Shown: piece by piece, positions 31,698-49,022 of the stretch
Numbering within the stretch: position 1 is the first letter of the stretch
Layout of the letters: the number at the start of each line of letters is the position of its first letter
NCBI GenBank assembly: GCA_016223165.1
Contig: JACRPO010000012.1
Location: 248,001-312,000 of the forward strand
DNA: 64,000 nt
Reading direction: 5' to 3'
Source of the DNA: Burkholderiales bacterium
GTDB lineage: Bacteria > Pseudomonadota > Gammaproteobacteria > Burkholderiales > Burkholderiaceae_C
Translations under genes and position numbers: made by a program
The notes under the pieces: generated by a model
Databases searched by the model: none
The model's input: only the letters and a program-made list of their open reading frames with translations
Told to the model about the DNA's origin: nothing

Positions 31698-32813
31698 ATG
31701 GCAGGTCCGCTGCAGGGTCTGAAGGTCATCGAGTTCGGCGGCATCGGGCCCGGGCCGTTCTGCGCCATGATGCTGGCGGACATGGGCGCCGAAGTCATCC
31801 GGCTGGACCGCAAGGCCGACAAGGGCAAGGACCGGGGCTCGCCCGGTTTCCTGGCCTCCGGCCGGCGCAGCGTGCTGCACCGCGGGCGGCGCTCGGTGGC
31901 GGTGGACCTGAAGGATCCCGGGCACCGCGACCAGGTGCTGGCGATGATCGACGGCGCCGATGCGGTGATCGAAGGCTATCGGCCGGGGGTGCTGGAGCGC
32001 CTGGGGTTCGGCCCCGACGTGCTGCTGGCGCGCAACCCGCGGCTGGTGATCGGGCGCATGACGGGGTGGGGACAGGACGGCCCGCTCGCGCAGTCCGCAG
32101 GCCACGACATCAACTACATCGCGCTGTCGGGCGCGCTGGCGACCATCGGTCGCAAGGAGGGCGGGCCGGTCGCACCGGCGGCGATGGTCGGCGACCTGGG
32201 CGGCGGCGGCATGATGCTCGCCTTCGGCATCGTCTGCGCGGTGCTCGAGGCGCGCGCCTCGGGCAAGGGCCAAGTGGTCGACGCCGCCGTGCTCGATGGC
32301 GCCGCACTGCTCACCTCCATCGTCTGCGAACTGCGTGCGCTGGGCCTGTGGCGCGACCAGCGGCAAGGCAACCTGCTCGACGGCGGCTCGCACTTCTACG
32401 ACACCTATGAGTGCGCCGACGGCCGGTGGATCTCGATCGGCTCGCTCGAGCCGCAGTTCTACACCTTGCTGCTTGACAAATTGGGCCTGGCCGGCGACCC
32501 CGAGTTCCGCCGCCAGCGCGACCCCGCCGCCTGGCCCGCACTGAAGGCCCGGCTGGCGGCGCTGTTCCGCAGCCAGCCCGCGGCGCACTGGTGCGCGCTG
32601 ATGGAGAACACCGATGTCTGCTTCGCGCCGGTGCTCACCACCGCCGAGGCAGCGCTGCATCCCCACAACGTGGCGCGCGCCACCTTCTTCGAGTCGGATG
32701 GTGTCTGGCAGCCGTCGCCTGCGCCACGTTTCAGCCGCACCCCGGCAGCGCGGCCTGCACCGGCACCGTACATCGGGGAACAGGATGAGGAACTGCTCCA
32801 TGGCAACGGGTGA
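31698..32813 (+). CDS. Alpha-methylacyl-CoA racemase (CaiB/BaiF family)
   Basis: Family III CoA-transferase fold enzyme of 371 residues that epimerises 2-methylacyl-CoA esters. The racemase signature is complete: AGHDINYIALSG with the catalytic His, MVGDLGGGGMMLAFG with the catalytic Asp, and GGSHFYDTYECADG. These distinguish it from true CoA-transferases, which use a single Asp. Strong AAGGAGG before ATG 31698. Its presence implies a substrate with an alpha-methyl branch, as in pristanic acid, steroid side chains or isoprenoids; beta-oxidation dehydrogenases accept only the S form. Ends 14 bp inside the next gene. Confidence 0.93.
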   Translation: MAGPLQGLKVIEFGGIGPGPFCAMMLADMGAEVIRLDRKADKGKDRGSPGFLASGRRSVLHRGRRSVAVDLKDPGHRDQVLAMIDGADAVIEGYRPGVLERLGFGPDVLLARNPRLVIGRMTGWGQDGPLAQSAGHDINYIALSGALATIGRKEGGPVAPAAMVGDLGGGGMMLAFGIVCAVLEARASGKGQVVDAAVLDGAALLTSIVCELRALGLWRDQRQGNLLDGGSHFYDTYECADGRWISIGSLEPQFYTLLLDKLGLAGDPEFRRQRDPAAWPALKARLAALFRSQPAAHWCALMENTDVCFAPVLTTAEAALHPHNVARATFFESDGVWQPSPAPRFSRTPAARPAPAPYIGEQDEELLHGNG

Positions 32814-39891: not shown

Positions 39892-40674
39892 TCAGCGGAA
39901 GCGCGAGAAGTCCGGCTCGCGCTTCTCGAGGAAGGCGTTGGCGCCCTCCTGCTGCTCGCCGGTCTCGAAGTACTTCGGCGCCACTTCCTCGATCAGCTCC
40001 TTCATGTCGCGCGCCATGATCGGCGCCATGTGGTGATAGAACGAGCGCTTGAGGATGCGCAGGCAGGTCGGGCTCAGCGCCAGCAGCTCGTCGGCGAACT
40101 TGCGCACCTCCTCGTCGAGCTTCTCCTTCGGGACGACCGAGTTCGCCAGGCCCCAGTCGAGCGCCTGCTGCGCGGTGTAGCGCCGGCACATCATCCACAG
40201 CTCGCGCGCGCGCTTGTGGCCAAGCACGTTGGCCGAATGCGAGACGATGTAGCCACCCGCCGGCGAGCCGACGCGCGGGCCGTTCTGGCCGAAGATGGAG
40301 TGGTCGGCCGCGACCGTGAAATCGCAGAAGTAGGCGATGTGGTGGCCGCCGCCGATGGCGTAGCCGCTGACGCGTGCGATCACCGGCTTCGGGCATTCGA
40401 CGATCTGGCGGTTGAAGGTGAAGTTCAGGTCCTCGAGGCCGCTCTTGCCGCCACTGCCTTTCTCCCAGTTCACGTCGCCGCCGACGCAGAACGCACGGTC
40501 GCCGGTGCCCGTGAGCACGATGACGCCGACCTTCTTGTCGTTGGCGGCCACGTCGAGCAGCCGCTGCATCTCGACGATGTTGTCGCCGGTGAAGGCGTTG
40601 AGCTGCTTGGGCCGGTTGATGGTGAGGGTGGCGACGTAGTCCTTGACCTCGAGATAGACCTCTTTGTCCGACAT
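39892..40674 (-). CDS. BadI/MenB-like crotonase (ring-cleaving or ring-forming CoA enzyme)
   Basis: Crotonase of 260 residues that resembles 2-ketocyclohexanecarboxyl-CoA hydrolase (BadI) and naphthoate synthase (MenB). Signs are KPVIARVSGYAIGGGHHIAYF, then FGQNGPRVGSPAGGYIV, the segment that in MenB/BadI supplies an Asp/Ser, then HKRARELWMMCRRY and the end EKREPDFSRFR. There is no Glu in the GGGHHI stretch, as in BadI and MenB. No other menaquinone genes lie nearby, which argues for a ring-cleaving hydrolase. Start ATG 40674 with CGGAGA 9 bases upstream. It follows the fused ligase gene by 39 bp. Confidence 0.88.
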   Translation of the reverse strand: MSDKEVYLEVKDYVATLTINRPKQLNAFTGDNIVEMQRLLDVAANDKKVGVIVLTGTGDRAFCVGGDVNWEKGSGGKSGLEDLNFTFNRQIVECPKPVIARVSGYAIGGGHHIAYFCDFTVAADHSIFGQNGPRVGSPAGGYIVSHSANVLGHKRARELWMMCRRYTAQQALDWGLANSVVPKEKLDEEVRKFADELLALSPTCLRILKRSFYHHMAPIMARDMKELIEEVAPKYFETGEQQEGANAFLEKREPDFSRFR

Positions 40675-40713: not shown

Positions 40714-43700
40714 TCAGTTGGGGTCGGTGGCGTTGACGGGTTGCCTCGCGCGGCGCTGCGCGAGCTCGACGAACCAGTCCAGGCTCGCCGGGTTGGCCAT
40801 CGCATCGCGGTTGGCCACCTTGTCGGCCGGCTGGCCGAGCAGCAGCTTCTTCACCGGCACCTCGAGCTTCTTGCCGGTGAGCGTGCGCGGAATCTCGGGC
40901 ACGGCGATCACGTCGTTGGGCACATGGCGCGCCGACAGCGACTCGCGGATGGCCGCGGTGATACGGCCGACGAGCGTGGTGTCAAGCGCACTGCCCGGGC
41001 GCAGCACCACGAACAGTGGCATCCAGCTCTCGCGGCCGAGGAACTCGAGGTCGACGACCAGGCTGTCCATCACCTCGGGCAGCGCCTCGACAACGCTGTA
41101 CAGCTCGCTGGTGCCCATGCGCACGCCGTGGCGGTTGATGGTGGCGTCGCTGCGCCCGTAGATGACCGCACCGCCGCGCGGCGTGATGCGCAGCCAGTCA
41201 CCGTGCCGCCACACCCCGGGATAAACATCGAAGTAGCTGTCGTGCAGGCGCTGGCCACCGGAGTCGTTCCACAGGTACAGCGGCATCGACGGAATGGGCT
41301 GTGTGCACACCAGTTCGCCCACCTCGTCGAAGAGCGGCTTGCCCGCGTCGTCCCAGGCCTGCACGTCGGCACCCAAGCAGCGCACCTGCATCTCGCCCAC
41401 GTACACCGGCAGCGTCGGCACGCCGCCGACGAAGGCACCTGCGAAATCGGTGCCGCCGGACATCGGCGTGAGCCAGATGTCGCGGCGCACCTTGTCGTAG
41501 ACCCAGCGGTAGCTCTCTGGCGACAGCGGCGAGCCGGTCGAGCCGACGGTGCGCAGCTTGCCCATCGCCGCCACGCTGCGTGGCTCGATGCCGTGCTTCT
41601 CGCACAGGGTGAAGAACGCGGCCCCGGCGCCGAAGAAGTCGAGGCCCTCGCGGCCGCAGAAGCGCCACAGCGTCGAGTAGTCGGGCCACGCCGGGTTGCC
41701 GTCGTAAGTGCACATCACCGCGCCCACCAGCAGCGCCGCGACGTTGAGGTTCCACATCACCCAGCCGGTGGTCGTGTACCAGTGGAAGCGGTCGCCCGCG
41801 ACGACGTCGTTGTGCAGCGCCATCGTCTTGACGTGCTCGACCAGGATGCCGCCGTGCCCGTGCACGATGGGTTTAGGCAGCCCGGTGGTGCCCGACGAGT
41901 ACACCACCCACAGCGGATGGTCGAACGGCAGCAGCTCGATCTGCAAGGGCGCACTGTCGCGCAGCGCGTCGCGCCAGTTCACACCGTTGCGCACGGCCGC
42001 GGCATCGGCAGCCGGGTCGAGGTAGGGCACGAGCACGACGCGCTCGAGCGTGGGCAGTTGCGCGAGCATCTCGTCCAGCACGGCGCGGCGGTCGTGCGCC
42101 TTGCCGCTCCAGCGGTAGCCGTCCACGGCGAAGAGCACCTTCGGCTCGATCTGCCGGAAGCGGTCGACGACCGCGGCCACGCCCATCTCCGGCGAGCACA
42201 GCGACCACACCGCACCGACGCTGGCCACTGCGAGGAAGGCCGACACCGCCTGCGGGATGTTGGGCAGCCAGGCGACGACACGGTCGCCCGGCTTCACGCC
42301 TTGCCGGCGCAGCCACGCGGCCAGCGCTCCGACCTCGGCTTGCAGCCGCGCCCACGACACCTCGTCGCGCGCATCGGCCTCGTTGCGGAACACGATGGCC
42401 GGCCGCTCGGTGCTCGCGTTGCGGAAGATCTGGCTGACGTAGTTGGTGCGGGCGCCGGGGAACCAGCGCGCACCGGGCATGCGGCGCTCCGCAATGACGG
42501 GCGTGCGCTCGCCCTGCAGCGGCAGGTCGAAGTACTCCACGAGCGCGGCCCAGAAGCCTTCGAGATCGTCGACCGACCACTGCCACAGCGCGTGGTAGTC
42601 AGCGAAGTCGCGGCCGTGCCGCTGCTTCAGCCAGCCGATGAAGTTCGTCAGGCGCGCGCGCTCGACGCGCTCGCGACTCGGGCGCCAGATCGCTTCGGGG
42701 GCAGCTGCGGCGTTCATGGGCTCGTCTCCTCGTAAGGCGGCCACGCTGGCCGGGCCATCGGCGGCCAGGCGGACGACGCGCTCACGCACCAGCTGCGCGA
42801 CGGCGTCGCCGCCGAAGCCGAGTTCCTTCAGCACCGCCGCGCTGTGCTGGCCCAGCCGCGGCGGCGGCGCGATGGCGTCCGGCCTCGCACCGCCCTCGCC
42901 CAGATGCGCGGGGAACGGGATCAGCGGCAGGCCGGGCAACTCCGGGTGTTCGACGAAGCGCGCCGCGAGCACCGGATCGGCCATCGCCTCGGCAACGGTG
43001 TTGACCGGCCCGCACGGCAGGTCGGCCGCGGCGAAGGCATCGACCCAAGCCGCCGCCGGGCGCGTGGCAAAGATCGCCGCGAGCGCCTCGGCCATCTCGG
43101 GCCGGTGCGTGACGCGGCCTGCGTTGGTGGCATAGCGCGCATCGCCCACCCATTCGGGCCTGCCGATGACCGCGCAGAAGCGTGCGAAGGCCGGATCGTT
43201 GACCACCGAGACGTTGAACCAGCGCCGGTCGGCGGCCCGGAAGTGGCGGCTGGGCGCGGCCAGCGGCAGGTTGATGGCACGCGCCGGCTCTCGGCCTTCG
43301 AGCGCGTACTCGGCCACGCGCGTGGCCATCAGGTTGAACATGGCATCGGCCAGCACGGTCTCCACCCGCTGGCCGCGGCCGGTCTGGCGCCAGTGCATGA
43401 TCGCCGCGAGGATGCCGAAGGCACCGCACATGCCGCACGTCACGTCGACGATCGGCAGGCCGATGCGGATCGGGTCGTCGCCGGCTTCGCCGCTGGCATA
43501 GAAGCCGCCGGCCGCGCCCTGCACGACGCTGTCCACCGCCGGTCGCAGGCGGTAGGCACCCTCCTCGCCGAAGGCGCTCACCGCGGCGTAGATGAGGTCG
43601 GGCTTCAGCGCGCGCAGTGCGTCGTAGGTCAGCCCATGCTCTTCGGCGAAGTCGGCGCGGAAGTTGTGCACCACCACCTGCGCCCGCTCGATCAGCCGAT

Positions 43701-43947
43701 GCAGGATCTCGCGTCCCGCCGGCTTGCGGATGTCCAACGCCAGCGACTCCTTGCCGCGGTTGCTCGCCATGAACAACATGCTCGAACCCTGCAGGAAGGG
43801 TGGGCCGAGGTGACGGCCGTCGTCGCCCGACAGGGACTCGACCTTGATGACGCGCGCGCCGAGGTCGGCGAGCGCCATCGACGCGTAGGGTCCAGCAATC
43901 AGCCTGGACAGGTCGACCACCGTGATGCCGTCCAGCACGCCTGCCAT
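40714..43947 (-). CDS. Fusion of CaiB-type CoA-transferase with acetoacetyl-CoA-synthetase-like ligase
   Basis: One open frame of 1077 residues joins two complete enzymes. Residues 1-410 are a family III CoA-transferase (LSRLIAGPYASMALADLGARV, the catalytic Asp in GLPIVDVTCGMCGAFG, GRGQRVETVLADAM). Residues 411-1077 are an acetoacetyl-CoA synthetase (NFIGWLKQRHGRDFADY cap, VVYSSGTTGLPKPIVHGHGG P-loop, FHWYTTTGWVMWN, and catalytic Lys in TLTGKKLEVPVKK). Each part has the usual length of a stand-alone protein. Met411 is preceded by GAGGAG and 8 bases, so the ligase could also be made separately. The codon CGA406 is one transition from TGA. Either a true bifunctional protein or two cistrons with a lost stop. 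Confidence 0.85.
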   Translation of the reverse strand: MAGVLDGITVVDLSRLIAGPYASMALADLGARVIKVESLSGDDGRHLGPPFLQGSSMLFMASNRGKESLALDIRKPAGREILHRLIERAQVVVHNFRADFAEEHGLTYDALRALKPDLIYAAVSAFGEEGAYRLRPAVDSVVQGAAGGFYASGEAGDDPIRIGLPIVDVTCGMCGAFGILAAIMHWRQTGRGQRVETVLADAMFNLMATRVAEYALEGREPARAINLPLAAPSRHFRAADRRWFNVSVVNDPAFARFCAVIGRPEWVGDARYATNAGRVTHRPEMAEALAAIFATRPAAAWVDAFAAADLPCGPVNTVAEAMADPVLAARFVEHPELPGLPLIPFPAHLGEGGARPDAIAPPPRLGQHSAAVLKELGFGGDAVAQLVRERVVRLAADGPASVAALRGDEPMNAAAAPEAIWRPSRERVERARLTNFIGWLKQRHGRDFADYHALWQWSVDDLEGFWAALVEYFDLPLQGERTPVIAERRMPGARWFPGARTNYVSQIFRNASTERPAIVFRNEADARDEVSWARLQAEVGALAAWLRRQGVKPGDRVVAWLPNIPQAVSAFLAVASVGAVWSLCSPEMGVAAVVDRFRQIEPKVLFAVDGYRWSGKAHDRRAVLDEMLAQLPTLERVVLVPYLDPAADAAAVRNGVNWRDALRDSAPLQIELLPFDHPLWVVYSSGTTGLPKPIVHGHGGILVEHVKTMALHNDVVAGDRFHWYTTTGWVMWNLNVAALLVGAVMCTYDGNPAWPDYSTLWRFCGREGLDFFGAGAAFFTLCEKHGIEPRSVAAMGKLRTVGSTGSPLSPESYRWVYDKVRRDIWLTPMSGGTDFAGAFVGGVPTLPVYVGEMQVRCLGADVQAWDDAGKPLFDEVGELVCTQPIPSMPLYLWNDSGGQRLHDSYFDVYPGVWRHGDWLRITPRGGAVIYGRSDATINRHGVRMGTSELYSVVEALPEVMDSLVVDLEFLGRESWMPLFVVLRPGSALDTTLVGRITAAIRESLSARHVPNDVIAVPEIPRTLTGKKLEVPVKKLLLGQPADKVANRDAMANPASLDWFVELAQRRARQPVNATDPN
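42715..42732 (-). promoter_or_regulatory. Internal ribosome binding site and start inside the fusion gene
   Basis: On the minus strand GAGGAG (42731-42726), 8 bases, ATG (42717-42715). This is a normal initiation signal exactly at the boundary of the two domains and overlaps the CGA codon that would be TGA after a C-to-T change. Confidence 0.55.
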
Positions 43948-44833: not shown

Positions 44834-45670
44834 TTGCAACTGGCGCAGGCCATCGCCTACGACTCGGCGCATCGACGCAGCGATGCCGCGCCGATGGCGC
44901 TGGCGCGGGTGCTGCGCGTGCTGCGGCTGCTCGCCGAGGAGCCCGACGGCATGACGCTGGCACAGCTCCAAGCCCAGCTCGGCGTGCCCAAGACCAGCCT
45001 GCATGCACTGCTGCGCGGCCTGGTCGCCGACGCCTACCTGCAGCGCAGCGACGCCACCTACCGGCTCGGCACCGAGTCGTTCGCGCTCGGCGCGGCGCTG
45101 GTGACCGCCCGGTCGCTCGGCATCGTGGCGACGCCGTTCCTGCACGATGCGCGCGCGAAGTCGGGCGAGACGGTGCTCATCGCAACGATCGACCGCGCGG
45201 CGGCACGGTTGACGTACACGCAGATCGTCGAAAGCCACAAGCCGGTGCGCTACACCGTCCCGGCAGGCACCACCCGGCCGTTGTTCGCCACGTCGGCGGG
45301 TCGCGTGCTGCTGGCCCATCAACCGGACGGCTGGACGCGCGACTATTTGCGCACCGCCGAGCTGCGCGCGCTGACGGAATCCACGGTCACCGACCGACGC
45401 CAGCTCGTCCGCATACTCGACCGTATCCGCGCCGATGGCCATGCCACCACGATCGGCGAAGTCACGCCCGACGTCGCGGGCTTCGCGGCGCCCATCTTCG
45501 AAGCCGACGGCCGCGTCAACGCGGCCTTGATCATCGCGGCCCCCATCGAGCGCGGGCGCGCCGCCGCCGAGCGACTGACGGCTGTCGCCGTCGACACCGC
45601 GCAGGGGCTTTCGCTCGCGCTCGGCCATCGGCCCTGCGGCGCCGGCACTTCCCCCCAACTCACGAACTGA
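44834..45670 (+). CDS. IclR-family transcriptional regulator
   Basis: A 278-residue regulator with an N-terminal winged helix (about 20-85; recognition region LAQLQAQLGVPKTSLHALLRGLV) and a C-terminal effector domain (about 95-265) with the typical YTVPAGTTRPLFATSAGRVLLAH and GEVTPDVAGFAAPIFEADGR segments. Effectors of this family are often carboxylic acids. Start is TTG 44834 with GGAG 8 bases upstream. It leads the operon of crotonase, MmgE/PrpD and dehydrogenase genes, the first only 6 bp away, and has a clear operator in front. Confidence 0.92.
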   Translation: MQLAQAIAYDSAHRRSDAAPMALARVLRVLRLLAEEPDGMTLAQLQAQLGVPKTSLHALLRGLVADAYLQRSDATYRLGTESFALGAALVTARSLGIVATPFLHDARAKSGETVLIATIDRAAARLTYTQIVESHKPVRYTVPAGTTRPLFATSAGRVLLAHQPDGWTRDYLRTAELRALTESTVTDRRQLVRILDRIRADGHATTIGEVTPDVAGFAAPIFEADGRVNAALIIAAPIERGRAAAERLTAVAVDTAQGLSLALGHRPCGAGTSPQLTN

Positions 45671-45676
45671 GCGACC

Positions 45677-46438
45677 ATGAGCGACGAACTGCTTTACGAG
45701 GTAAACGACGGGGTGGCCGTCATCACGATCAATCGCCCCGAGCGCAAGAACGCCCTGAACCGGGCGGTACGGCAGGCGATGTTCGAGGTCTGGCCGCGGT
45801 TCGAGGCGGACGAGTCCGCGCAGGTCGCCATCCTCACCGGCAAGGGCGACACCTTCTGCGCCGGCATGGACCTCGTGGAAGCCGCGGACACCGTGCTGCG
45901 CATCCCGCCGAAGAACTTCATGGCCGTGCTCGGCGACAACGTCGAGGTCACCAAGCCGGTGATCGCGGCCGTGCAGGGTTATGCCTACGCGGGGGGCTGG
46001 CTGCTCGCCCAGATGTGCGACCTGTGCGTGGCCGACGAGACGGCCAAGTTCGCCATCACCGAAGGCCGCGTCGGTCGCGGCATGCCGTGGGCTTCGCCGG
46101 TGATCCACATGCTGCCGCAGCGCATCCTCATGGAAGTGGCGATGACCTGCGATCCGCTGTCGGCGCAACGCGCCTACGAACTGGGCTACGTGAACCGTGT
46201 CATGCCGGCGGGACAGGCCCTGCAGGGCGCCCGGGAGCTGGCGGCGCGCATCACCGTGAACGCCCCGCTCACCGTGCGCGGGGCCAAGGAGATGGTGCGC
46301 ATGGCCACCGAGATGGGGCGCACGGCCGCGCTGCGTGCATCGCAGCGCGCGTTCGACGCCGTCTACCTGAGCGAGGACGCGCTCGAAGGACCGCGTTCTT
46401 TCCGCGAGAAGCGCAAACCGCAATGGAAGGGTCGATGA
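45677..46438 (+). CDS. Enoyl-CoA hydratase/isomerase family protein
   Basis: Crotonase of 253 residues. TFCAGMDLVEAAD forms the first oxyanion part; GYAYAGGWLLAQMCD lacks the first Glu; ITEGRVGRGMPWASPV has the second acid. The end REKRKPQWKGR is typical. It pairs with the crotonase at 8.6-9.4 kb, which has the same R-x-GRG-PWA layout, so the two islands share a paralogue. Starts 6 bp after the IclR gene; the next gene starts at the following base pair but one. Confidence 0.88.
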   Translation: MSDELLYEVNDGVAVITINRPERKNALNRAVRQAMFEVWPRFEADESAQVAILTGKGDTFCAGMDLVEAADTVLRIPPKNFMAVLGDNVEVTKPVIAAVQGYAYAGGWLLAQMCDLCVADETAKFAITEGRVGRGMPWASPVIHMLPQRILMEVAMTCDPLSAQRAYELGYVNRVMPAGQALQGARELAARITVNAPLTVRGAKEMVRMATEMGRTAALRASQRAFDAVYLSEDALEGPRSFREKRKPQWKGR

Positions 46439-46439
46439 G

Positions 46440-47855
46440 ATGAACGCTCGGATCGCAACCGCAGCGCCGCCCAAGGCCGCGCCGCAGACCCTGAACCTGA
46501 CCGGCGCGCTGGCCGAGCGCAATGCCGCGTGGCACTTCCTGGCGCTGCCCGGCGATGCCCGCGAGCTCGCGCGCCAATGCCTGCTCGACTGGATCGCGGT
46601 CGCGCTAGCGGGTGCCCACGAGCCGCTCGCCTGCATGCTGGCGGAAGAGGCGCGCGAGCAGGGCGGCCACCCGCAGTCCACCGTCGTCGGGCAGGGCTTC
46701 GCCACGAGCTGCCGCCAGGCTGCACTGGTCAACGGGGCGGCCTCGCACGCGCTCGACGACGACGACGTCAACATGTGCTTCACGGGGCATCCGAGTGCGG
46801 TGCTCGTGCCGCCGCTGCTCGCGCTCGCCGAGGCGCGCGGCGAAAGCGGCGCGGCGTTCATGACGGCGTTCGTCGCCGGCTACGAGACCCTGTGCCGCAT
46901 CGGCGCGGCGGTGTCGCCCGGGCACCACGTATCCGGCTTCCACGCCACCGGGACGATCGGCACCTTCGGCGCGGCCGCCGCCTGTGCGCGCCTGCTGCGG
47001 CTCGACCCGGACGACACCGCGGTGGCGCTGGGCATCGCGGCGACGGAGGCCACGGGCCTGAAGTCGATGTTCGGCACGATGTACAAGCCGCTGCACGCCG
47101 GACGCGCCGGCGCCGACGGCATGATGGCCGCCCACCTCGCCGCGCGCGGATTCGCCGGCCGCGGCGACGCGCTCGAGGCCGCGCAGGGCTTCGCCGCCAC
47201 CTACGGGCCCGACTTCGACCCCGCTGCCGCGTTGCGCGAGCCGGCACGCGGCCTGCACCTGCGCGACAACCTCTTCAAGTACCACGCCGCCTGCTACGGC
47301 ACCCATGCCGCCATCGAGGCGGCCCGGCACCTGCGGCAACGGCACGGCCTGGCGGACAGCGATGTGCGGCGCATCGTCGTGCACGCGTCGGCGCTCAGCG
47401 AGGGCGTGTGCAACATCGCCGAACCGTGCACGGGGCTGGAGGCGAAGTTCAGCCTGCGCCATGCGGTGGCAATGGCCCTCGCGGGGATCGACACGGCCTC
47501 GATGTCGAGCTTCACCGACGAAGTCACGAACGACCGCGACCTGCGCCGCCTGCGCGAGCGCGTGCACGTAGAGCTTCATCGCGAGTGCCAGGAGATGAGT
47601 CGCGCGGAAGTCGTGATCGAGACCACCGATGGGGTGCTGCTGCGCCGCCACCACGACGTCGGCTTGCCCGTGACCGACCTGGCGGAGCAGCGTCTGCGGC
47701 TCGAGCAGAAATTCCGCTCGATGGCCGGATCGAGGCTCACCGCCGAGGCTTGCGACGAACTGATCGACCTCGTCGATCGCCTGGAAGACCTGCCCGACCT
47801 GTCGCCACTGGCCGGTCTGCTCGGCGCCGCCGGCGCGCCACGTCGCATTCATTGA
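46440..47855 (+). CDS. MmgE/PrpD family protein
   Basis: A 471-residue protein of the 2-methylcitrate dehydratase / cis-aconitate decarboxylase family. The N-terminal helical domain has ARQCLLDWIAVALAGA and NGAASHALDDDDVNMCFTGHPSA (the His and Asp of the active site pocket), then the GFHATGTIGTFGAAAACARLL hallmark and KYHAACYGTHAAIEAA. Many members outside prp operons have unknown hydro-lyase or isomerase function. There is no methylcitrate synthase nearby, so a role in propionate use is unlikely. ATG 46440 is 1 bp after the crotonase stop. Confidence 0.9.
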   Translation: MNARIATAAPPKAAPQTLNLTGALAERNAAWHFLALPGDARELARQCLLDWIAVALAGAHEPLACMLAEEAREQGGHPQSTVVGQGFATSCRQAALVNGAASHALDDDDVNMCFTGHPSAVLVPPLLALAEARGESGAAFMTAFVAGYETLCRIGAAVSPGHHVSGFHATGTIGTFGAAAACARLLRLDPDDTAVALGIAATEATGLKSMFGTMYKPLHAGRAGADGMMAAHLAARGFAGRGDALEAAQGFAATYGPDFDPAAALREPARGLHLRDNLFKYHAACYGTHAAIEAARHLRQRHGLADSDVRRIVVHASALSEGVCNIAEPCTGLEAKFSLRHAVAMALAGIDTASMSSFTDEVTNDRDLRRLRERVHVELHRECQEMSRAEVVIETTDGVLLRRHHDVGLPVTDLAEQRLRLEQKFRSMAGSRLTAEACDELIDLVDRLEDLPDLSPLAGLLGAAGAPRRIH

Positions 47856-47879
47856 ACCTGTGCAGCAAGGACCCCGGAG

Positions 47880-49022
47880 ATGAACTTTCTTGACGAGGAA
47901 CGGCAAGCCTGGAAGGACTCGGTGCGCCGCTGGGTCGATCGGGACGTCGGTCGCGAGTACATCCGCAAGTGCGACATGACCCGCACCTTCCCCTTCGAGG
48001 CGTACGAAAAGGCCGCCAAGCTGGGCTACCACAGCCTGCTGGTCCCGGAGGCTGACGGCGGAGACGGCGGCGACATCTGGGCCTATGCGTTGATGTGCGA
48101 AGCGATGGCCTGCTACGGCGTGGACTTCGCCGTCGCGATCTGCGGCGGCATCTTCACCGCGATGAATCTGTCGCTGCACGGCACGGAGTACCAGAAGAAG
48201 CAGTTCCTGCAGCCGTTCATGCGCGGCGAGATCCGCTTCCCGATCTCCATGTCCGAGCCGAACGCCGGCTCCGACGTCGCCAACGTTCAGACGCGCGCGG
48301 TACGCGACGGGGACGACTACGTCCTCAACGGACAGAAGCTGTGGTGCAGCGGCGCGGGCAACCGGGGCGCCGTCATCCTGATGCTGGTTCGCACCGCGCA
48401 GACGCCCGACAAGCGCAACGGCCTGACGGTGCTGATCGTTCCCAACGACCTGCCGGGCATGACGATCCGGCCGCTGAACACGCTCGCGCGCCGCTCCATC
48501 ACCACCACCGAAATCTTCCTCGACAACGTCCGCGTGCCGGCGGTCAACCGGCTGGGCGAAGAAGGCCAGGGCTTCCACATCATTGCCGGCGAGCACCTCG
48601 CCCTGGAGCGCATCGCGGTGGCCGCCAGCAATGTCGGCAATGCCCAAGGGGCGGTCGACGATGCCCTCGCCTATGCCAAGCAGCGCATCCAGTTCGGCAA
48701 GCCGATCTACGAGTTCCAGGTCATCCGGCACATGCTGGCCGACATGCAGACCAACACCGACGCGGCGCGGCTGCTGATGTACCGCGCCGCGGAGGTCGCG
48801 TCGAGCGGCCAGAGCTACCGCAAGGAAGTGGCGATGGCGAAGCTGTTCGCGTCGGAGAACCTGCAGACTGTGACACGGCAGGGCATGCAGATCATGGGCG
48901 GGCACGGCATGCTGCCGGAGTCCGACATGGAGCGCTATTTTCGCGAGGGCATGCAGTCGACCATCGGCGGCGGCACGTCGCAGATCCAGCGCACGATCAT
49001 CGCCCAGGAAATGCGGGTCTGA
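47880..49022 (+). CDS. Acyl-CoA dehydrogenase
   Basis: FAD enzyme of 380 residues. SMSEPNAGSDVANVQTRA, KLWCSGAGNRG and QFGKPIYEFQVIRHMLADM are the family segments; the C-terminal GGGTSQIQRTIIAQEM corresponds to the FAD/CoA-binding end. It has IMGGHGMLPESDMER, as in medium-chain type proteins. 24 bp after the MmgE/PrpD gene. Together with a second dehydrogenase in this operon (50.3 kb) it points to two oxidation steps. Confidence 0.92.
   Translation: MNFLDEERQAWKDSVRRWVDRDVGREYIRKCDMTRTFPFEAYEKAAKLGYHSLLVPEADGGDGGDIWAYALMCEAMACYGVDFAVAICGGIFTAMNLSLHGTEYQKKQFLQPFMRGEIRFPISMSEPNAGSDVANVQTRAVRDGDDYVLNGQKLWCSGAGNRGAVILMLVRTAQTPDKRNGLTVLIVPNDLPGMTIRPLNTLARRSITTTEIFLDNVRVPAVNRLGEEGQGFHIIAGEHLALERIAVAASNVGNAQGAVDDALAYAKQRIQFGKPIYEFQVIRHMLADMQTNTDAARLLMYRAAEVASSGQSYRKEVAMAKLFASENLQTVTRQGMQIMGGHGMLPESDMERYFREGMQSTIGGGTSQIQRTIIAQEMRV

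Follow-up and report, generated by a model that had tools for sequence, protein, structure and literature searches.

Probable recent stop-loss fusion of tandem CoA-transferase and acetoacetate--CoA-ligase-type genes in a Burkholderiales bacterium

How did a coenzyme A (CoA) transferase and an acetoacetate--CoA-ligase-type enzyme come to share one reading frame, and which proteins would that frame yield? In this study, we analyzed a 64,000-nucleotide stretch of a Burkholderiales bacterium (assembly GCA_016223165.1, contig JACRPO010000012.1, positions 248,001 to 312,000), hereafter the window. A frame of 1077 codons runs on its minus strand from 43947 to 40714, with an ATG start and zero internal stops. 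An earlier note, made from the letters of the window, had described one frame joining two full-length enzymes. Reading of the open reading frame (ORF) and the Pfam and NCBIfam profile matches agree with it: a class III CoA-transferase and an acetoacetate--CoA ligase are joined in one frame, and each domain is full length. Pfam placed CoA-transferase family III at residues 5-369 of the fused protein and AMP-binding-type domains from residue 451 onward. Direct reading also reproduced Met411 (42717-42715) with GAGGAG 8 nucleotides upstream, and CGA at codon 406 (42732-42730). We consider it likely that the frame is a young stop-loss fusion of a tandem pair, which gives the fused protein and probably the free ligase, both within one catabolic cluster. 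The parts of the frame, each with the evidence for it, are as follows.

40714..43947, minus strand: fused ORF of 1077 amino acids; ORF reading, and the same frame with an identical seam in a second assembly (locus L057).
42748..43947, minus strand: class III (CaiB/BaiF) CoA-transferase part, residues 1-400, with Asp139 in AVDSVVQG; Pfam PF02515, solved homologues and a motif kept in orthologues.
42718..42771, minus strand: linker, codons 393-410 (RLAADGPASVAALRGDEP); divergent tails and TGA in unfused relatives, and low predicted local distance difference test (pLDDT) values.
42733..42735, minus strand: codon 405, TTA, the likeliest site of the lost stop; pairwise alignment with L107, and the sole TTA counted.
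42730..42732, minus strand: codon 406, CGA, a less likely site of the lost stop; one change from TGA, and a six-sequence alignment.
42726..42731, minus strand: Shine-Dalgarno sequence GAGGAG of the ligase, retained inside the fused frame; direct reading and pairing with the 16S tail.
40714..42717, minus strand: acetoacetate--CoA ligase part from Met411, 667 amino acids; TIGR01217 and PRK03584 above cut-off, PDB 4wd1 and intact motifs.

Class III CoA-transferases are interlocked dimers that carry out CoA transfer. The transferase part matched PF02515 (CoA_transf_3) over residues 5-369 with 374.6 bits against a cut-off of 23.3, covering profile positions 1-366 of 366. Asp139 aligned with the Asp of GYDFVVQ and GYDFMIQ in PDB 10uh and 4ed9, and an Asp stands at this position in all 10 transferase rows of the A3 alignment. 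We take Asp139 to be the catalytic aspartate of the family. The subfamilies considered were succinate--glutarate, oxalate, formyl-CoA, mesaconate and carnitine; no substrate-specific transferase model reached its cut-off among the best 25 of 79 NCBIfam families, the top one being NF052585 with 248.2 of 750 bits.

The ligase part passed the cut-off of PRK03584 (981.5 bits against 639, over residues 417-1066) and that of the acetoacetate--CoA ligase equivalog TIGR01217 (826.9 bits against 520.9). Its nearest solved chain was PDB 4wd1, with a match that spans 6-656 of the 667 residues. YSSGTTGLPKP, YGRSD and RTLTGKK are all present and largely conserved across the ligase rows of the alignment; presumably they are the adenylation motifs and the C-terminal lysine region. 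The same genome holds at least two further copies of the ligase, with 58% and 48% identity, and the ligase of the fused frame may therefore have a substrate other than acetoacetate.

The fused frame was found in a second assembly. The metagenome-assembled genome of Rubrivivax sp. TGS_PRO34 (L057 and G462, with the same contig coordinates) carries the same 1077 codons with an identical seam. The two versions differ at 43 of the 3234 nucleotides of the frame, in 26 synonymous and 12 non-synonymous codons, and the transferase accounts for 1 synonymous and 0 non-synonymous differences. Over 15 kilobases (kb), the ligase part holds 42 differences, a single 250-base block of the crotonase 13 and all other sequence about 10. 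Since only about 10 fall outside these two patches, the two fused assemblies very probably represent one species. The patches themselves (42450-40750 and about 40200-39950) look as if sequence had been exchanged with another strain by recombination, or as if the metagenome assembly had mixed strains.

We compared the fused frame with its unfused relatives. In all nine other orthologous pairs examined (L107, L059, L060, L061, L062 and L146-L149), transferase and ligase are separate genes: a TGA closes the transferase, and the ligase is read in a different frame. Identity to the window was 83% for the transferase and 85% for the ligase in L107, 75% and 82-84% in L059-L062, and 64-68% for both in L146-L149. 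The two genes are 14 nucleotides apart in L107 when GTG is taken as the start, 10 in L059-L062 and 4 in L146, L147 and L149, and they overlap by 4 nucleotides (ATGA) in L148. Trees of the transferase, of the ligase and of both, rooted with L146-L149 as the outgroup, placed the fused pair beside L107 with support of 1.00, 0.86 and 1.00, nested in the unfused set. When ligase-only loci were added to the ligase tree, L058 joined L107 and the fused pair was sister to both. With either placement, fusion is the derived condition and arose recently. These comparisons indicate that the frame arose recently, in this lineage only, when a conserved tandem pair was fused by stop loss, and that it does not belong to a conserved bifunctional family. 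The earlier note would have given up its reading had all close homologues been two separate genes. We found two genes in each of the nine pairs and one fused gene in the second assembly, which argues against a long-standing fusion and not against a fusion in this species.

Searches for other fusions were then considered together. Five genome sets were searched (61, 399, 81, 399 and 398 genomes, 1338 in total with overlaps), with at most 2 to 12 candidates scored per genome and, in three of the sets, strict E-value limits. Among the matches listed, a full-span match was seen only in the window genome and in that of the second assembly. In a scan of named genomes, in which 80 of 124 loci were kept, six matches start at residue 1, of which L057 is fused and L059, L060, L061, L062 and L107 are separate genes. 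On plasmids, one place covered at least 80% in 13 of 1672 records, and the four of these 13 that were examined all had separate genes. A conserved fusion family was rejected, since every fused copy among the matches listed came from this species.

Open frames come cheaply in DNA of 70% guanine plus cytosine, where stop-free stretches are common. At least 100 stop-free codons lie upstream in frame at 44 of 175 ligase loci. This set includes some genomes twice, 9 of the open stretches reach the end of the locus, and extensions below 40 amino acids were left out of the comparison. The upstream open stretch encodes the transferase in just 3 of the 175 loci, namely in the window genome (L001) and in one second genome that is present twice (L057 and L137). 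All three belong to this species, and a chance open frame was rejected on this ground. Longer apparent matches elsewhere, such as that at L049, are open-frame extensions without a transferase.

Next to the comparison of whole genes, the seam itself points to where the stop was lost. The linker probably consists of the former transferase tail and intergenic DNA, and pLDDT falls below 50 at residues 379-416 of a structure predicted from the A3 alignment, a model used for the linker alone. The earlier note had pointed to codon 406, one C-to-T change from TGA, as a candidate for the lost stop. The CGA and the distance of one change stand, and the position is probably one codon off, since pairwise alignment of the window with L107, scored in four ways, matched the L107 TGA to codon 405 in each of its optimal solutions. 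TTA occurs once in the 8097 codons counted over 21 chosen reading frames of the window, and that one is codon 405, as would be expected of DNA that was non-coding until recently. The lost stop is thus likelier to have been codon 405 (TGA to TTA) than codon 406, and the exact codon depends on the alignment. Formally, the stop could also have been lost when an ATGA overlap shifted by 1 base. A random 18-codon stretch of the same composition lacks a stop with a probability of 0.71; with the genuine stop lost and both genes in the same frame, little more is needed for a fusion.

The start of the ligase has been kept. Pairing of the Met411 Shine-Dalgarno sequence with the 16S tail over the stretch from -20 to -3 gave -8.9 kcal/mol, which beats the transferase's own start (-3.4 kcal/mol) and nine other neighboring starts taken from a mechanical ORF list. 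None of the 82 other in-frame ATG or GTG codons of the fused frame matches this strength. GAGGAG and Met411 look like a working ribosome site that now lies inside a coding frame. Because this internal site is strong, free ligase is probably still made alongside the fusion, and the locus probably has two products, the fused transferase-ligase and the free ligase. According to Huber et al. (PMC10666635), termination-reinitiation coupling requires overlaps or very short distances. As the unfused pairs range from a 4-nucleotide overlap to a gap of 14 nucleotides, the ancestral pair would have been tightly packed and not necessarily coupled.

These observations suggest the following course of events. 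The ancestral tandem would have held a class III CoA-transferase gene, a few bases and then the gene of an acetoacetate--CoA-ligase-type enzyme. The stop of the transferase was lost, most likely by TGA to TTA at codon 405. As the ligase lies in the same frame as the transferase, ribosomes would then continue into it and produce a two-domain protein of about 115 kDa with a flexible linker. The ligase ribosome site and ATG survive within the frame, and free ligase of about 72 kDa is probably made too. The transferase would transfer CoA to an acid, with an acyl-CoA as the donor, the ligase would activate a 3-oxo acid with ATP, and both would serve one catabolic cluster for a carboxylic acid. An earlier proposal, a gene pair with a lost stop that makes both fused and free ligase, is well supported as to origin by the nine unfused pairs, the trees and the shared seam, and its two products are plausible through the internal ribosome site.

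The genes around the fused frame were examined in the window and in related loci. The conserved neighbors, with the evidence for each, are as follows.

39892..40674, minus strand: MenB/BadI-like crotonase directly downstream, a conserved partner; profiles, and its presence behind the ligase in most of the related loci whose flank is long enough.
44834..45670, plus strand: divergent IclR-type regulator of the conserved cluster; profiles and comparison of loci.
45677..49022, plus strand: divergent crotonase, MmgE/PrpD protein and acyl-CoA dehydrogenase of the conserved cluster; comparison of loci.

The fused frame is followed by the MenB/BadI-like crotonase and then an alpha/beta hydrolase, and it faces the divergent cluster of IclR regulator, crotonase, MmgE/PrpD protein and dehydrogenase. 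This arrangement is retained in L107 and largely in L060. The downstream crotonase fell under every equivalog cut-off (badI, 247.6 of 467.6 bits; menB, 245.9 of 342.7; PRK07396, 265.2 of 380). The acyl-CoA dehydrogenase was nearest to cyclohexane-1-carbonyl-CoA dehydrogenase with 336.6 of 650 bits, also below cut-off. Together, these two below-cut-off matches hint at an alicyclic acid as the substrate of the cluster. Within the sequence fetched, seven clusters (L058 and L063-L068) lack a transferase and keep the ligase, the crotonases, the IclR regulator, the MmgE/PrpD protein and the dehydrogenase, so the ligase appears to be the constant activating enzyme. The transferase, present also in the outgroup pairs, is by this comparison dispensable or lost in some lineages. 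The seven loci come from Ramlibacter, Schlegelella, Xenophilus and related bacteria, and in six of them (L063-L068) ligase and crotonase are separated by about 1 kb of other DNA.

Related transferase and ligase genes also lie in one cluster, as separate genes, on four plasmids (of Rhodococcus sp. 008 and WAY2, Pseudonocardia and Cupriavidus), three of which come from Actinomycetota. A crotonase is part of the cluster in three of the four. On the Rhodococcus plasmids, transferase and ligase overlap by 4 nucleotides in one and are 25 nucleotides apart in another. The Pseudonocardia plasmid pBCI1-2 (L172, 5997-10835) holds a 3-hydroxy-3-methylglutaryl-CoA (HMG-CoA) lyase, an acetoacetate--CoA ligase, a crotonase and a CaiB-type transferase in one run. 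The HMG-CoA lyase before the ligase suggests that the ligase recovers the acetoacetate that the lyase releases and that the transferase activates an earlier acid, which would make this run a candidate pathway for the release and re-activation of acetoacetate. Two further places in the window genome hold similar genes. About 32 kb from the fusion (contig C7, about 324-329 kb; L174, 6026-10762), a second cluster, of CoA-transferase sequence and sequences resembling a major facilitator superfamily transporter and an acetoacetate--CoA ligase, lies on one strand. At 31698-32813 of the window, on the plus strand, a class III CoA-transferase-like gene adjoins a gene resembling the ATPase of a branched-chain amino acid ATP-binding cassette transporter.

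Several points weigh against a stop-loss fusion with two functional products. The loss of the stop may be nearly neutral and the fusion of little consequence. Agreement within one species is no evidence of long-term selection, and if the two samples are related, the assemblies are only partly independent. In the predicted structure the ligase is mostly well modeled and the transferase half is poor, a weakness that stems partly from MAFFT misplacing parts of the transferase-only rows. Pairing of -8.9 kcal/mol or better precedes 0.75% of all codon positions in the fused frame. As to the lost stop, in the alignment of six sequences the TGA of L059-L062 falls on codon 406, and the L107 TGA stands above codon 404.

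The frame could instead encode a true bifunctional enzyme under selection, in which a functional fused chain reaches the same acyl-CoA by an ATP route and a CoA-donor route, or passes the product of one domain to the other. Both domains are intact, and the genes recur together in the nine unfused pairs and on the plasmids of Rhodococcus, Pseudonocardia and Cupriavidus. However, the fusion is seen in a single species, seven clusters have the ligase with no neighboring transferase in the stretch fetched, and the internal Shine-Dalgarno sequence would yield free ligase regardless. We therefore regard such an enzyme as rather unlikely. The related proposal of the earlier note, one enzyme that activates a single acid by two routes, may still apply in this species but is not a conserved enzyme type: apart from the near-identical second assembly, all nine pairs examined are two genes. 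A more specific idea is that one frame with two starts gives two proteins and that, within the fused one, acyl-CoA made by the ligase at the cost of ATP serves the tethered transferase as CoA donor, a donor-regenerating activation enzyme at its birth. This is a speculative proposal to which we assign a small chance. No ATP-driven donor-regenerating transferase-ligase enzyme was found in the open PubMed Central (PMC) literature.

It is improbable that the fused frame is rarely translated, with a decaying transferase and free ligase as the sole product that matters. The absence of the transferase from seven related clusters as fetched and the weak Shine-Dalgarno pairing at its own start are in line with decay, but the transferase has no non-synonymous and a single synonymous difference between the assemblies and keeps its motif and full-length frame. 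An assembly or base-calling error that hides a stop or a shifted frame at the seam of the real genome is highly improbable even though the fused state was met in one species only, a single base change would create a stop at codon 405, 406, 407 or 409, a TGA in the +1 frame overlaps the ligase ATG as arranged in L148 and a five-C run follows just after this ATG: the seam is identical in two assemblies that differ 43 times within the frame, which speaks against random sequencing error, homopolymers do not exceed 3 bases from codon 393 to the ATG, and nine codons separate the ATG from the conserved Ile-Trp-Arg-Pro both in the window and in L059-L062, so that an indel in the five-C run is unlikely.

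A stop-loss fusion of a tandem pair would offer a snapshot of how a two-domain enzyme originates: one stop is lost, the old ribosome site stays, and nine unfused relatives are at hand to compare it with. Likely partners are also identified in a class III CoA-transferase and an enzyme of the acetoacetate--CoA ligase type; their link is found again in distant bacteria and can guide assays of this uncharacterized acid-degradation cluster. The type of event, fusion of neighboring genes, is known; this pairing of domains was met as a fusion nowhere else among the matches listed, and its benefit is putative. No paper on a transferase-ligase fusion was found in the open PMC literature.

Prokaryotic fusions of neighboring genes, as discussed in PMC3711429, likewise involve adjacent genes that are separate in relatives and joined in one lineage. 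In contrast to such fusions in general, the downstream start is still present here, and the fusion was met only in this species among the matches listed. The transferase part resembles the class III CoA-transferases (PF02515; for example PDB 10uh, 4ed9 and 9br6) over the whole domain and shares the Asp of the VDSVVQ stretch with 10uh and 4ed9, but its C-terminus continues into a second enzyme. The ligase part passes both curated cut-offs for acetoacetate--CoA ligase (TIGR01217 and PRK03584) and, unlike 4wd1, is fused at its N-terminus. The tandem pairs of L107, L059-L062, L146-L149 and the plasmids of Rhodococcus sp. 008 and WAY2 have the same enzymes in the same order with tight spacing; they are two genes each, whereas in the window the two are fused into one frame.

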